In this document: positions 4,993 through 10,949 of the stretch, in pieces
Layout: each line of letters begins with the position of its first letter
Numbering within the stretch: the stretch's first letter is position 1
IMG/VR virus record: IMGVR_UViG_3300013014_000116
Location: 1 to 26,104 of that record
Direction: 5' to 3' (one strand)
Length of the DNA: 26,104 nucleotides
From: a virus
Made by a program: the position numbers and the translations under genes
The notes under the pieces: generated by a model
What the model saw: the letters and a program-made list of their open reading frames with translations, nothing else
What the model was told of the DNA's origin: nothing
Database searches by the model: none

Positions 4993-7900
4993 TTAACCCT
5001 GTGAATACTTTAATAATTTGTTAGTGTAATTATTAGTTGTGCTTACTTTATCAATAAGATCATCAAATTTTGATTCCATCATAGAGTATAAATCCATTAG
5101 TATAGCAGAACTATTGTCTTTTGAAGATGTAGTTGTATCTGCTACTACTGACGATAATGCACCTTTTTTAGCTGACCCATCTTGCTGTGCTTTGTCCATT
5201 GCTATTTTATCTCCGGGATTAGGTAAAGGAACAATAGCTTCTCTACCGTGCAATTCTACTGGGTATCCAGCTTTAGGACCATCAAATACACCACCGTCAT
5301 AAGCTTTAAGAGGGTTTAGCGGTAATTCAACGTGATAATGTCCACCGGTTGCTTGTTTACTAGGATCGTCATATTCATTTTTAACATTGATACCGTGTTT
5401 ACCCCCGGCGGCATATATAGCTTTCTGTATTTGTTTATCGTATTCTTTTCCTGGTTTACTACTACCTGGTTCTAGACCCACAACCATATCAAATGCTAAT
5501 CCTTTTGTATGTCTACTTTCAGGAGTTTTTTCTGCATGATATCTGTCATTAAATCCAGTGAAAGATTTGAACCCTGGTGTACTTGCCTGTACTTGTTTTG
5601 CTATCTCTATTAGTGCTGGATCAATTTTAGCACCAGGTTCCTGTAAATCTCCAGTTTTAGATTCCATCCTTAACCCAGCAGCTTTTAATTGATCAAGAGT
5701 AGTAGCTTGTACTTGACCAGAACCCCCTTGGGATTTCATACTATATGGATTAGATGAAGTACCAGAACTAGAACTAGAACTAGAACTAGAACTAGAACTT
5801 CTATTATTTCCTCCACCACTTCCGCCATTCATGCCTGTTGCAAACGCAGCAAAGGCTTCTGCCATTTCTTTTGTCTTTTTAGGATCAATATTAAGTTTAG
5901 AAAAATCAACAAATTTTTCTATTATGTCTTTTCTACCAAACATTGATAAAAATCCATCAGCTAATCCACTCATCAGTGATCCAAAACCGCCGGCTGCTGC
6001 TCCTAATCCACCTTGAGCAAATGCTTTACTAAATTCTACAAAGGCTTCTGCATTATTTTTACTTCGTTTAACATCAATATCAAGTTTAGAAAAACTTACA
6101 AATTTATCTATAGGAGTTTTTCCATTAAGTAATCTTGATACTCCATCTCCAATTGCACTTATTGATGTTCCTAAACCTTCAAGTACTGCACTTGTCCCAG
6201 CAGCACCCATTGCTTTACTAAATGCTATAAATGCTTCTGCATTTGATTTAACTTTTTCTGCATTGATATCAAGTTTAGAGAATTTTATTAATTTATCTAC
6301 AGGCAATTCTGTTCCAAATAGCTTTGATAGACCATCACCTATCGCACTTACGAATGTTCCTATACCACCTATTATTGAACTTCCACCTGCTATTGCCATT
6401 GCTTCACTAAATGCCACAAATGCAGAAGCATTTGATTTAACTTTTTCTGCATTGATATCAAGTTTAGAGAATTCTACTAATTTGTCTATTGGAGTTTTTC
6501 CACCAAAGAATGAAGTAAGACCATCAGACATATTACTAATGATACTACCTATGCCAGCTGCTGCACCACCAACTCCAAATACTGCTAATCCTGTACCTAA
6601 ATACCCTATACCAAGTCCTGCTTGTTCTAATTTTTTACCATCTAATACTTCAAAACTCTTGATACCTTCCATTAGTGTTGGTAATGCTTTACCCATTATC
6701 CAACTTGCTCCTGCAATACCTGCACCAATTCCAGCTATGATAGCTGCTGCTGATGCTGCAAGTCCTGCAGCACCTAATACAACTTGTGGGTTAGCAAATG
6801 CCATTAAGAATCCAGCTAGTCCTTCTCCTGCTCCTTTTCCTAAATTTTTCAATATGCCAGGTTCTGCTAGTGTTTTTATGATTTCACTAGCACTACTGCT
6901 ACCGCCGCCCCCTGGAATGCCACCACCCGAAGGCATTCCCGGAGCATCGATTGTGGGGCGCGCTTTGGCGCCGCCCATTTGGGCGCTAGCAGTAGGCCCA
7001 TTTTGCCATCCAGCAAACGAACCCGGAGTATATTTTGTACCGCTTGTATGTGCTGTAGTTACTCCACCTGTTTGAGCAGTACGACCCAATGCATCTGATA
7101 ATTTACCAACTAATTTATCTTCTGCTTTATCAGCCGCAATACTAGCCATCTTTCCAGCAAACAACTTATAAGCTACTAATGCTCCAGCAGCTATCCCAGC
7201 AGCCATCATTGGATTATTCACTGCAAAGTCTTTTATATATCCACCAAATTTAGCAATATGTTCCATAAATTCTTTTAATGGCTCTCTAAACGCTTTTGGT
7301 AAAAATCTATCCATTGCCGATTCCATTGCGTTTGGCATTGCTATTAATGTACCTCGCACATCCTTCTCCATTGCAATCTGTAACATTTTAGCGCCCCATT
7401 GCTTGTCTAGTTGATTATTTGTAAATGAATCTAATGATGTGCGTAATGCAGTAAGTGCTTCTCCTGGATCGTATTTTGGTGCACCCGGTGGTGCATTGGC
7501 ATCAGCTTTTGCGGTTTTTGCTGCTGATCCTGCTGTAGCAAACTTGTAATTTTCAAAAGCTGCAAAACTATCTATACCCACGCCTGATTGTTCACCGGCA
7601 ACTTGCACATTTCTAGCAATTTGATTTTGATAAGTACCTATTCCTTCTCCTGCTAGTTCCAATAGACGAGTTTGATTCGTTTCTCCTCTTTTGTTTGCCT
7701 CTAGCATAGGCTCAAGATATCTTAGCATTACTGCTTGATTGCCATCCACTGCAGCACCTGACTTATTTTTTACAAATGCCTCTGCCAGTTGAGGCAGTCC
7801 TTTTGCCATAAATTGTTTAGCTATGTTTTCTGTAAGTTCTAAATCTTTAAGTTTTTCAGTATTACCTTCTTGTCTTGCTACATTTTTTGCAGCAGCCAAT

Positions 7901-9324
7901 TGAGAGATTGCTCTAATAGCATCTGCGGCTTTTTCTTGTTCTTTACGAGTTACACCAAGTAAAGTTGCTGCTCTGTCTAATTCAAACACATAGCCTTTAG
8001 CACCTGCTGCTATTTGTTCAGTAGTTTTTTTCTCAAGTCCACCCAGAGAGACTTGCTGTTCCATGTATTTTAGTGTATGTTCATTAAGTGCATCTTGATC
8101 GATTCCCATTCTTCTAAACGTTTCACCAAACTTATTCTTTACGAGGTCTGCTATATCAGTGAATTTTTGTAAACCTTCTACAGTACTAGAGCCAAACGTA
8201 GCCAAAGCCTGTCCGCTTTCACCTACTATTTTAATAAATTTAGCTATATCTTTTGTAGACAATCCAAGTTGGCCAAGTTGTTTCCATAATTGTGTCATGC
8301 CACCAGCAGTGGTCATGGATGCTTGTCCTACTTGATTAAAATCTTTATATAATTGATCGTAGATTGCTGCTTGTTTTTTAATTAATTCAGCATCTCGTTT
8401 CATTGTTGCAGCAGTAGCTTGCTTCTGATATCCTTCGTAAGCTAATGTCGCACCAATTAGTAATCCTATTATACCAACCAATACCCCAATTGGTCCGCCT
8501 AGAATTATCATTTGTAATGCGGTTTTACCAGCTTCCATGCCCAAGCTAACCATGCTTGAGCCAGTAGCTTCTATTGAACTAGCCAATGCATTCATTTCAG
8601 CAGATACTTGAGCGGCAGCTGCTGAGTTAGCACCAGCTCCTTCTAGTATTGCATCAGTAAAAGCATTTGCACCTTCCCAAGCACCTTTGATTCCTGCTAT
8701 AAATAAATTCAAAGTACTTGTAATTGCTAAACCTGCTATATCTTTTCCTAACTGTCCAATATTGCCAGCCATTTGTTGCTGAACTCTGTCTTGCTCTTTA
8801 AGTATTCCAATATGTGCCCGTTGGGCCATAGTTAATCCATCAGTTTCTTTAACTAATTTACCATTTGCATCAAAAACTCTTCCGGTTGAAGCTAGCGCAC
8901 GGGTCATAGCTACTTCGTTTTTTAACTCATTTTTATATCTTTCTTTTGCAGATTGACTTAAATTTTTGAAATCAGAAGTATTTTCTTCTAATACTTTGTT
9001 TAGTTCAGCTTCGGCTGCTTGCCGAGCCTTCATGTCAGATACTCTAGCCTTTTCAATTTTTGATAGTGTTTCATTACCTTCTTTGTAGGTTCTTATACTA
9101 ATACCTAAATCATCAAAGTTTTTCCTAATTCTAGCTGAATAAGCATATTCTTCTCTTTGATCTGTCTCTCTTAATGCTTTCTCTCTTTTTTGTTGGGCAA
9201 TTGTTTCTTGAGTAGCTTCGGTGTGTGTCCTAGTAGTTTCCGTGGAACGCTCTACCCCTTCGGACATTCCTTCAAAAGCCCTAGTCAGTCTTTCTATTCT
9301 GTCAAACAGTTCTTGTTCGTTCAT
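4993..9324 (-). CDS. Tail tape measure protein with internal tandem repeats and an M15-type peptidase domain
   Basis: A 1443-residue protein, the longest here. The N-terminal ~170 residues are charged coiled coil. Long hydrophobic, Gly/Ala-rich segments follow near residues 195-300, 695-725 and 835-890. Four tandem repeats of about 62 residues containing FSKL(D/N)I span roughly 905-1160, then a 12-serine linker. A peptidase region follows with SRHTKGLAFD (His1272, Asp1279) and GHYHVEL (His1329, His1331), which fits the SxHxxGxAxD...HxH zinc motif of M15 (VanY/VanX/Ply500-type) peptidoglycan peptidases. The C-terminus has GGVFDGPKAGYPVELHGRE followed by AIVPLP, a closing motif common in tape measure proteins. 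T4 gp29 is only 590 aa and lacks the peptidase. Likely role: sets tail length, exits at infection and cuts cell-wall peptides. Start ATG at 9324; no strong ribosome site. Confidence 0.85.
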   Translation of the reverse strand: MNEQELFDRIERLTRAFEGMSEGVERSTETTRTHTEATQETIAQQKREKALRETDQREEYAYSARIRKNFDDLGISIRTYKEGNETLSKIEKARVSDMKARQAAEAELNKVLEENTSDFKNLSQSAKERYKNELKNEVAMTRALASTGRVFDANGKLVKETDGLTMAQRAHIGILKEQDRVQQQMAGNIGQLGKDIAGLAITSTLNLFIAGIKGAWEGANAFTDAILEGAGANSAAAAQVSAEMNALASSIEATGSSMVSLGMEAGKTALQMIILGGPIGVLVGIIGLLIGATLAYEGYQKQATAATMKRDAELIKKQAAIYDQLYKDFNQVGQASMTTAGGMTQLWKQLGQLGLSTKDIAKFIKIVGESGQALATFGSSTVEGLQKFTDIADLVKNKFGETFRRMGIDQDALNEHTLKYMEQQVSLGGLEKKTTEQIAAGAKGYVFELDRAATLLGVTRKEQEKAADAIRAISQLAAAKNVARQEGNTEKLKDLELTENIAKQFMAKGLPQLAEAFVKNKSGAAVDGNQAVMLRYLEPMLEANKRGETNQTRLLELAGEGIGTYQNQIARNVQVAGEQSGVGIDSFAAFENYKFATAGSAAKTAKADANAPPGAPKYDPGEALTALRTSLDSFTNNQLDKQWGAKMLQIAMEKDVRGTLIAMPNAMESAMDRFLPKAFREPLKEFMEHIAKFGGYIKDFAVNNPMMAAGIAAGALVAYKLFAGKMASIAADKAEDKLVGKLSDALGRTAQTGGVTTAHTSGTKYTPGSFAGWQNGPTASAQMGGAKARPTIDAPGMPSGGGIPGGGGSSSASEIIKTLAEPGILKNLGKGAGEGLAGFLMAFANPQVVLGAAGLAASAAAIIAGIGAGIAGASWIMGKALPTLMEGIKSFEVLDGKKLEQAGLGIGYLGTGLAVFGVGGAAAGIGSIISNMSDGLTSFFGGKTPIDKLVEFSKLDINAEKVKSNASAFVAFSEAMAIAGGSSIIGGIGTFVSAIGDGLSKLFGTELPVDKLIKFSKLDINAEKVKSNAEAFIAFSKAMGAAGTSAVLEGLGTSISAIGDGVSRLLNGKTPIDKFVSFSKLDIDVKRSKNNAEAFVEFSKAFAQGGLGAAAGGFGSLMSGLADGFLSMFGRKDIIEKFVDFSKLNIDPKKTKEMAEAFAAFATGMNGGSGGGNNRSSSSSSSSSSSSGTSSNPYSMKSQGGSGQVQATTLDQLKAAGLRMESKTGDLQEPGAKIDPALIEIAKQVQASTPGFKSFTGFNDRYHAEKTPESRHTKGLAFDMVVGLEPGSSKPGKEYDKQIQKAIYAAGGKHGINVKNEYDDPSKQATGGHYHVELPLNPLKAYDGGVFDGPKAGYPVELHGREAIVPLPNPGDKIAMDKAQQDGSAKKGALSSVVADTTTSSKDNSSAILMDLYSMMESKFDDLIDKVSTTNNYTNKLLKYSQG
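5764..5799 (-). repeat. Six perfect copies of a 6-bp unit (AGAACT on the plus strand) encoding a poly-serine linker
   Basis: AGAACT is repeated six times without mismatch. Read on the minus strand it encodes the 12-residue serine run between the tandem-repeat region and the peptidase domain of the tape measure protein. Six-base units keep the frame, so copy number can vary without breaking the protein. Confidence 0.95.
6239..6473 (-). repeat. 46-bp direct repeat inside the tape measure gene
   Basis: The 46 bases at 6239-6284 recur at 6428-6473 with no difference that I can see. They are 189 bp (63 codons) apart and encode the AEKVKSNA-containing and FSKLDINAEK part of two neighbouring protein repeats. 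Two further, more diverged copies of the protein repeat lie at lower coordinates. The near-identical DNA suggests a recent duplication or gene conversion. Confidence 0.9.
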
Positions 9325-9411: not shown

Positions 9412-10233
9412 ATGAACAACCCCCTAAGACAGTATTTCCGCAGACCTGCTCTATATATATCATTGCCTAGCAAAGGAGAATATTACCCAGAGGGTGCTAT
9501 TGAAATGACGGAAAACGGAGAACTTCCAGTGTTTCCAATGACTGCAATTGATGAAATTACAAGCAAAACCCCGGATGCATTATTTAACGGTAGTGCAGTC
9601 GTTGAGATTATAAAAAGCTGTATTCCTGCAATCAAAGACCCATGGCATATGCCAAATATAGATATAGATGCTATCTTAGTTGCAATTCGTGCTGCTACTA
9701 ATGGAAGCGAATTAGATTTGAAATCTATCTGTCCAGAATGCGAAAATGAAGGTTCATATGGAGTAGACTTAATGGGATTATTACAAACTATTAAACCTAT
9801 TGATTTTGAAAGTACTGTTGCGTTTGGTGAATTGTTAATTAAATTTAAACCATTGTCTTATAAACAAGTAAACGACCTTAATTTAAAACAATTTGAATCA
9901 CAAAGGGAAATAATGACCTTAGAATCTATTACAAATGAAAACGAAAAAAATTCAAAATCCAGTGAGATAATGAAAAAATTATCTAACATGAATATGAGTT
10001 TGATAGCCATGACCATTGCTTCTATTAGTATACCTGGAGAAACAGTTACTGATGCTAAGTTTATATTTGAATTTTTATCATCTTGTGATAGAAATACATT
10101 TGAAAAAATTCGTGAATCTATGATTAATCTTAGAGCCAATTCAACTATTAAACCACAAAAAGTAAAATGCGTAAATTGTTCGCATGATTACGAACAAGCA
10201 ATAACATTAAATGTTACAGATTTTTTCGTATAA
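9412..10233 (+). CDS. 26: gp26-like baseplate hub / tail assembly protein (0-frame product)
   Basis: A 273-residue protein in the T4 gp26 family (T4: 208 aa), which in T4 is needed to assemble the baseplate hub. The N-terminal block PSKGEYYPEG...NGELPVFPMTAIDEITSKTPDALFNG (from residue 19), then SCIPAIKDPW and DIDAILVAIRAATNG, is the pattern I associate with this family. Two CxxC pairs, Cys107/Cys110 and Cys253/Cys256, could form a zinc-binding site. Start ATG at 9412 follows GGAGAA at 9400. The last codons, GAT TTT TTC GTA TAA, contain a -1 slippery heptamer directly before the stop. The tape measure gene is divergent and adjacent, which fits a tail assembly chaperone role. The gp26 label is from motif memory, the chaperone role is inference. 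Confidence 0.75.
   Translation: MNNPLRQYFRRPALYISLPSKGEYYPEGAIEMTENGELPVFPMTAIDEITSKTPDALFNGSAVVEIIKSCIPAIKDPWHMPNIDIDAILVAIRAATNGSELDLKSICPECENEGSYGVDLMGLLQTIKPIDFESTVAFGELLIKFKPLSYKQVNDLNLKQFESQREIMTLESITNENEKNSKSSEIMKKLSNMNMSLIAMTIASISIPGETVTDAKFIFEFLSSCDRNTFEKIRESMINLRANSTIKPQKVKCVNCSHDYEQAITLNVTDFFV
10221..10227 (+). promoter_or_regulatory. -1 ribosomal frameshift slippery heptamer T TTT TTC
   Basis: In the gp26-like frame the codons are GAT TTT TTC GTA TAA, so the heptamer reads T TTT TTC, a canonical X XXY YYZ site. After a -1 slip, reading continues CGT ATA AGG CTT and stays open to the TAA at 10455-10457. The 0-frame stop is only one codon further on. A 9-bp stem starts 6 bases downstream of the heptamer. 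Confidence 0.75.
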
Positions 10234-10457
10234 GGCTTCTTTCTCTTGATAGCGAACAGATAATAAAATTATTGAATGGGCTAGAAAAAGAAGCCGAACA
10301 GATCAAGGATAATGCATTGAAATATTCTTGGTATATGAGAGGAGGCGTAAGTTATGAAGATATACTTAATATGTCTCCGCATGAACGAGAAACTATAGCT
10401 AAGATAGTTGAAGATAATTTAGAAACAACTAAGAAATCTCAAATGCCATTCTTCTAA
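10227..10457 (+). CDS. -1 frame extension of the gp26-like protein (C-terminal domain made by frameshifting)
   Basis: The -1 frame is open from 10188 to the stop at 10455-10457. After the slip it adds 76 residues to residues 1-272 of the gp26-like protein, for a 348-residue fusion. The added part is helical, with LEKEAEQIKDNALKYSWYMRGG, then VSYEDILNMSPHERETIAKI and VEDNLETTKKSQMPFF (each quoted in part). I recall similar short WYMRGGVSY...ETTKK proteins after gp26 in environmental phages. No ATG precedes the conserved core; the only upstream start is TTG at 10272 without a ribosome site, so independent translation is doubtful. In T4, gene 51 lies directly after gene 26, but whether this domain corresponds to gp51 is not known to me. 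Function is inferred to be tail assembly chaperone-like. Confidence 0.65.
   Translation, partial: RIRLLSLDSEQIIKLLNGLEKEAEQIKDNALKYSWYMRGGVSYEDILNMSPHERETIAKIVEDNLETTKKSQMPFF
10234..10307 (+). promoter_or_regulatory. Predicted frameshift-stimulating stem, possibly a pseudoknot
   Basis: GGCTTCTTT (10234-10242) pairs perfectly with AAAGAAGCC (10287-10295), giving a 9-bp stem whose base is 6 bases after the slippery site. That spacing is typical for -1 frameshift stimulators. Within the 44-base loop, CTTGAT (10245-10250) can pair with ATCAAG (10302-10307) beyond the stem, which would make a pseudoknot. The pairing is read directly; folding in vivo is inference. The long loop may hold a further small hairpin around 10262-10273. 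Confidence 0.6.
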
Positions 10458-10500: not shown

Positions 10501-10550
10501 AGATGAACTTCGTTCATCTAAGACCTCACTTCGTTCGGTCTTATTTTTCT
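10501..10550 (+). terminator. Tandem hairpins with T-run: rho-independent terminator of the gp26-like unit
   Basis: The first hairpin is a perfect 8-bp stem, AGATGAAC/GTTCATCT, with a TTC loop (10501-10519). The second starts on the next base: AAGACC (10520-10525) pairs with GGTCTT (10537-10542) and is followed by ATTTTTCT. CTTCGTTC is repeated in both loops. The T-run is only on the right, so the terminator serves the plus strand. Confidence 0.75.
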
Positions 10551-10949
10551 ACAATTCTGTATTCTCAAAAACTTTATTGTATCGGGTATATATTGCCGCT
10601 TTGAAGCCATGGTAGTGCAAATTTGCACTACCAATGGAAACTTGCCATGCCCGTCATCCTTTGCCATCTATTCCCCGCACAATCGCCTTTTTCGTGACAT
10701 TATACGCAACCGGTTGTCCTGTAGTGTTTATGGGACTGTAGTGAAGCTACCAATGTCTTTCAATTGATTCTTCGACAACGCATGTTCTATATCCGCAAGA
10801 TAGAGTTGGATATAGACTCATTGAAGGTTCGCTTTGACGAGAGCCTTCTCGGTTTTCCTTATCATTGCTGATAAGCATACTCCAGATCCGTCAGCACAGC
10901 ACAATCTGTACAAACTCAAGGAGGACTCACAGACTGAGCCAGCAAATTT
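10551..10949. other. About 400-bp non-coding region rich in inverted repeats
   Basis: No open frame of note on either strand. Base composition is visibly richer in G+C (about 43-50% in the 60-base lines counted) than the nearby plus-strand genes (about 27% in one line counted). It holds a perfect 22-bp palindrome at 10611-10632, a 9-bp stem TCTATATCC/GGATATAGA (10786-10794 with 10808-10816), an 8-bp stem GAAGGTTC/GAGCCTTC with one G-U pair (10823-10830 with 10841-10848), and a 7-bp stem CTTATCA/TGATAAG with a TTGC loop (10858-10875). I found no tRNA, hammerhead or known riboswitch pattern. It could be a structured phage RNA, a replication or packaging signal, or a decayed gene. Confidence 0.5.
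10611..10632. repeat. Perfect 22-bp palindrome
   Basis: GGTAGTGCAAA followed by its exact reverse complement TTTGCACTACC. Flanking CCAT and ATGG (with one extra A on the right) can extend the pairing. As DNA it could be a binding site for a dimeric protein; as RNA it cannot make a normal loop unless the central bases open. Confidence 0.9.

Follow-up and report, generated by a model that had tools for sequence, protein, structure and literature searches.

A known case in which frameshifting yields 2 tail assembly proteins is the G/GT pair of phage lambda. The short form ends soon after a slippery heptamer, G_GGA_AAG, the long form carries a C-terminal extension read in the −1 frame, and the 2 genes adjoin the tape measure gene. 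Tail genes with such a −1 frameshift in long-tailed phages were reportedly treated by Xu, Hendrix and Duda in 2004.

In T4, gp26 and gp51 are counted among the chaperones of hub assembly; the particle lacks gp51, although its assembly requires it (PMC3004832). Vladimirov, Gautam and Davidson (2022, Virology 566:9-15) are cited as having identified the T4 tail assembly chaperones in PMC10885494, which adds that some T4-like phages carry 1 short chaperone gene and 1 long fusion gene instead of frameshifting. Poly-T slip signals in T4-like chaperone genes are referred to as known, again citing Vladimirov 2022, in PMC12846349, which also describes a conserved −1 frameshift at a poly-T stretch, with the motif GTTTTT, in the chaperone locus of phage Adele (Vandenendeviridae/Andersonviridae). 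The preliminary description of the DNA analysed here knew of no such frameshift described for T4 genes 26/51; with the T4 chaperones identified and poly-T slip sites reported for T4-like phages (PMC10885494, PMC12846349), the idea is less new than it seemed there. A frameshifted T4-type chaperone is thus not new in kind, and what is added here is the present phage group, together with how deeply the heptamer and the stem that follows it are conserved.

The window, i.e., the whole stretch of 26,104 nucleotides that was analysed, carries 1 PF12322 gene, rather than the 2-gene arrangement of T4, and a long form requires a −1 slip. The 0-frame ORF (9412–10233, plus strand) encodes a gp26-like short product of 273 aa, which matches PF12322 (T4_baseplate) with an E value of 9e-19 (68.4 bits, against a cut-off of 24.5) and the baseplate hub family phrog_150 with an E value of 8e-18. 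Its AlphaFold2 model (pLDDT 87) has a T4-like baseplate hub assembly protein as its best match in BFVD. Comparison with the PDB gave no usable match (Z up to 7.4, covering a helical stretch only), and no solved structure of the PF12322 family was found for fold comparison. Family and PHROGs searches returned no match of this gene to a lambda-type chaperone family.

The last codons of the ORF are GAT TTT TTC GTA TAA. They contain the heptamer T_TTT_TTC at 10221–10227 (plus strand), in the X_XXY_YYZ register of the 0 frame and 1 sense codon before the stop, followed by a 6-nt spacer (10228–10233), which includes the stop codon TAA (10231–10233) and is shared with most relatives. In the −1 frame, an open stretch begins at 10188 and ends with a stop at 10455–10457. 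A slip at the heptamer would join 272 residues of the 0 frame to a 76-aa extension (RIRLLSL...QMPFF; 10227–10457 with its stop, plus strand), yielding a 348-aa fusion. Direct reading thus confirms the heptamer, frame, coordinates and fusion length given in the preliminary description, which saw the extension as a helical domain with no ATG or ribosome site before its core. The AlphaFold2 model of the −1-frame tail is helical (pLDDT 89), and the first ATG of that frame falls within the conserved WYMRGG core, leaving 2 TTG codons, the first of them at 10272, as the only start candidates before it. The tail domain had no match below E 1 in BFVD.

Relatives of both the 0-frame part and the tail were gathered by tblastn and by scans of IMG/VR; the −1 tail had relatives in 80 fetched loci. 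T TTT TTC stands unchanged and in register in all 58 distinct related junctions, which are related rather than independent sequences, with protein identity dropping to about 40% within the set, and the G after the heptamer is identical in all 58 as well. The tail is in the −1 frame in every one of these junctions and extends exactly 74 codons beyond the 0-frame stop. Because the loci of this first set had mostly been found via the tail, another scan was restricted to conserved N-terminal peptides of the 0 frame, far upstream of the junction; the heptamer was in register in 67/67 distinct junctions. A third scan, started from gp26 of cyanophage S-PM2, found it in 53/53 junctions of the cyanophage type. 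The second Phe codon at the slip site is always TTC, even though these genes use TTC less often than TTT for Phe (142 against 372, out of 514), and the few other FF pairs that they contain are never written TTT TTC. Judging from these comparisons, the heptamer at the junction is not a product of chance. Furthermore, a −1-frame stop codon directly adjoins the heptamer in 42/58 junctions, so that the conserved junction FR is hardly reachable there except via a slip at this site, and the codon-position entropy past the 0-frame stop (0.86, 0.54 and 1.38) follows the −1 frame. In one locus, L148, the heptamer and stem are kept and the −1 ORF ends after 23 codons, through either error or decay.

The same arrangement extends well beyond the nearest relatives. 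T_TTT_TTC in register with a related −1 tail is found in the jumbo phages Munch, GAP32, CBB, 121Q, RaK2, SCTP-2, Vibrio 2.275, PA5oct, Atu_ph07 and Phosso, i.e., in 10 of the 11 jumbo phages examined, the exception being XacN1 with T_TTT_TTT. Among T4-like phages, P-SSM2, S-PM2, KVP40 and Aeh1 have T_TTT_TTC in register and a −1 tail, and HTVC008M has T_TTT_TTT. The distance from the start of the heptamer to the 0-frame stop varies between phages from 10 to 40 bases; what stays constant is thus the heptamer and not the stop. The cyanophages and KVP40 resemble the window in that T_TTT_TTC starts 10 bases before the 0-frame stop and the sequence called gp51 lies in the −1 frame, but their tails are shorter (57–63 aa versus 76), their stem sequence is different, and the 2 parts are annotated as separate genes. 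In cyanophages, gp51 has been noted to be approximately 20% of the usual length and to consist of the C-terminal part only (Sullivan et al. 2010, PMC3037559), a truncation which the slip site would explain. In several jumbo phages, the small downstream ORF is recorded as a hypothetical protein, and in RaK2 and PA5oct it is unannotated. Many genome records of T4-related phages split the long chaperone form into 2 genes or miss its tail. As described, the Adele locus is similar in its −1 frameshift at poly-T and in that the ORF downstream had been wrongly annotated as a gene of its own, but it has the GTTTTT motif and belongs to other phage families.

The heptamer of the window is followed, after 6 nt, by a perfect 9-bp stem with a 44-nt loop, whose 5′ arm, GGCTTCTTT, is at 10234–10242 and whose 3′ arm, AAAGAAGCC, is at 10287–10295 (both plus strand). 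The fold of 10228–10300 has a z-score of −3.1 relative to shuffles. When 48 sequences are aligned without gaps, the partners of the 7-bp core stem pair in 94% of the cells, compared with 35%–58% when the partner is slid by 1 to 3 columns. The stem covaries: the core shows double, compensatory changes (e.g., C-G to U-A), and a longer, 14-bp version of the stem shows double changes at 7 pairs. With shuffles that keep the −1-frame protein by exchanging synonymous codons, the mean z-score of the stem region is −1.74 in the 58 junctions and −1.59 in 50 further sequences, against −0.42 for a control stretch further downstream. In the cyanophage set, the mean is −2.00, but the downstream control is also fairly structured (−1.12), which makes folding a weaker line of evidence for that set than for the clade of the window. 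The position of the 3′ arm shifts between clades: compared with the main group, it lies approximately 25 bases further downstream in the window and the relatives closest to it. In addition, Atu_ph07, Phosso, P-SSM2 and S-PM2 have stems of unrelated sequence at nearly the same place after the heptamer. RNAalifold applied to the 48-sequence alignment gave a weak and different consensus (−0.16 kcal/mol); as both stem length and 3′ arm vary between sequences, we relied instead on the count for the named structure and on folds of single sequences.

The preliminary description had combined this stem with a 6-bp pseudoknot. The stem and its 6-base spacer hold, but the pseudoknot was dropped: the proposed pairing of 10245–10250 (plus strand) with 10302–10307, 6–7 bp in the window, is broken in a 98%-identical relative (L001) and absent from 3 others (L014, L015 and L016).

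The relationship of the window gene to both T4 proteins can be followed in profile comparisons. T4 gp26 and gp51 both match the full length of PF12322 and are thus paralogues, gp26 corresponding to the short form and gp51 to the long one. The latter is approximately 48 residues longer, and this extra part aligns with the −1-frame tails; a segment of the P-SSM2 tail, YYKINFALMQHHKYSLTELENMMPWER, aligns with 26 of its residues. In hhalign comparisons, cyanophage tails matched gp51 at 97%, and the tails of the window and of the jumbo phages matched gp51 plus cyanophage tails at 90% (E value of 1.7e-6), whereas column-permuted controls stayed under 1%. The match of the fused protein of the window to phrog_150 reaches position 280 of the 282, like that of gp51, and the match of the short form ends at position 229. 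The 0-frame product thus belongs to PF12322 like both T4 proteins, and the C-terminus of gp51 has a relative in the −1 extension, but T4 encodes the short and long forms by 2 divergent genes, whereas the window has 1 gene and a frameshift.

T4 genes 26 and 51 are divergent neighbours, and T4 gene 26 lacks the heptamer, with GAG TTC TTT GAG at that place. A partner gp51 encoded after T4 gene 26 was considered and rejected, as gene 51 is divergent and itself a PF12322 copy. The suggestion that gp26, and perhaps gp51, would be the T4-type counterpart of the G/GT pair needs correcting for T4 itself, which has 2 genes and no frameshift pair.

The sequence comparisons that the preliminary description had called for favour its reading. 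Taken together, the conserved heptamer, the constant −1 frame, the covarying stem and the gp51-type tail support the overall frameshift interpretation, and we consider it very probable that 1 gene makes the short and the long forms of a T4-type tail chaperone by a −1 slip. Most ribosomes would stop at 10231–10233 and release the 273-aa short form, the equivalent of T4 gp26. A fraction of them would slip back by 1 base at T_TTT_TTC, helped by the stem 6 bases downstream, and continue in the −1 frame to give the 348-aa long form, the equivalent of T4 gp51. The slipping itself, its rate and the chaperone role are what we infer from the sequence features described above.

Other explanations of the 2 frames account for parts of this evidence. 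The same fusion could result from RNA polymerase, rather than the ribosome, slipping on the run of 6 T residues, and the runs of 7 or more T in HTVC008M and XacN1 would suit such slippage. However, the seventh base is C in all 58, 67 and 53 junctions of the 3 sets, despite TTT being used more often for Phe and a longer run being expected to slip better, and a ribosomal site accords with a stem that keeps its spacing and varies by compensatory changes; we regard polymerase slippage as very unlikely.

Separate translation of the downstream ORF as a small protein, whether begun at a start codon of its own or by ribosomes reinitiating where the 0 frame stops, would agree with the records of P-SSM2, S-PM2 and KVP40, in which gp51 is annotated from an ATG at or just after that stop, and with the overlapping ATGA present in 9/58 relatives. 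Yet in 39/58 junctions there is no −1-frame ATG, GTG or TTG up to position +33, no ribosome-site match precedes any start in the remaining 19, and the conserved residues begin before any start. Moreover, a separate gene would not be expected to lie in the −1 frame in every lineage, its existence would leave the invariant heptamer unexplained, and T4 gp51 is a continuous fusion. We therefore judge a separate protein highly unlikely as the general explanation, although in the 9 relatives with ATGA and in the cyanophages with an ATG just past the stop, some of the tail may additionally be made by independent or coupled translation. As for a single gene broken by sequencing error or mutation, the frame change itself, and nothing beyond it, points that way; over 100 distinct junctions, taken from many assemblies as well as from finished reference genomes, share the same frame relation, and this conservation refutes the idea, to which we give practically no weight. 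Translational slippage at the heptamer thus remains the reading that we adopt.

The tail assembly chaperone role of the window gene rests on homology and on the published assignment, and would, by analogy with lambda G/GT, involve the tape measure protein. The short form may coat that protein, and the long form may link it to tail or baseplate proteins by means of its helical C-terminal extension. The presumed client is the product of an adjacent ORF of 1443 aa on the opposite strand (4993–9324, minus strand), for which PF and PHROGs-type family searches gave no match. A relative of this ORF lies beside the gp26-like gene in 50 loci, on the opposite strand in 50/50, and in RaK2 the equivalently placed and oriented neighbour carries an annotation of similarity to a tape measure. 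By size, place and this annotation, the ORF is a fair tape measure candidate. The likeness to lambda seen in the preliminary description is therefore partial: the short form ends near the heptamer, the long form arises via the −1 frame and the candidate tape measure gene is adjacent, but that gene is divergent, whereas the lambda genes lie upstream of the tape measure gene in the same operon, and the heptamer is not G_GGA_AAG.

Among 6 T4-like records, T4 alone has 2 PF12322 copies, with single copies in P-SSM2, S-PM2, KVP40, HTVC008M and Aeh1; the divergent pair is also found in 44RR, QL01 and an Acinetobacter phage. It is likely that the −1 frameshift at T_TTT_TTC with its stem is the ancestral route to the 2 chaperone forms across the whole T4 superfamily, including the jumbo phages, and that in 1 branch this route later gave way to the T4 26/51 pair through gene duplication and fusion in frame. 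In the simplest history, the ancestral frameshift gene would have been duplicated in the T4 branch, after which the slip site was lost from one copy and the other became an in-frame fusion.

A further arrangement was seen in 2 Straboviridae loci, from Enterobacter EC-F2 (L124:1201-2494) and Klebsiella CP-p-KP-21068 (L126:1201-2492), where a gp51-like gene and a shorter gp26-like gene stand in tandem before gene 25, unlike the divergent pair of T4. Elsewhere, a sequence with GGHYHVELP had a weak endolysin match in PHROGs. Downstream of the frameshift gene of the window, 2 short hairpins in a row at 10501–10547, GATGAACTTCGTTCATC and then AAGACC...GGTCTT with a T run, look like a transcription terminator, and a perfect 22-base palindrome, GGTAGTGCAAATTTGCACTACC, occupies 10611–10632, in the space that separates the tail ORF from a convergent PDDEXK nuclease gene.
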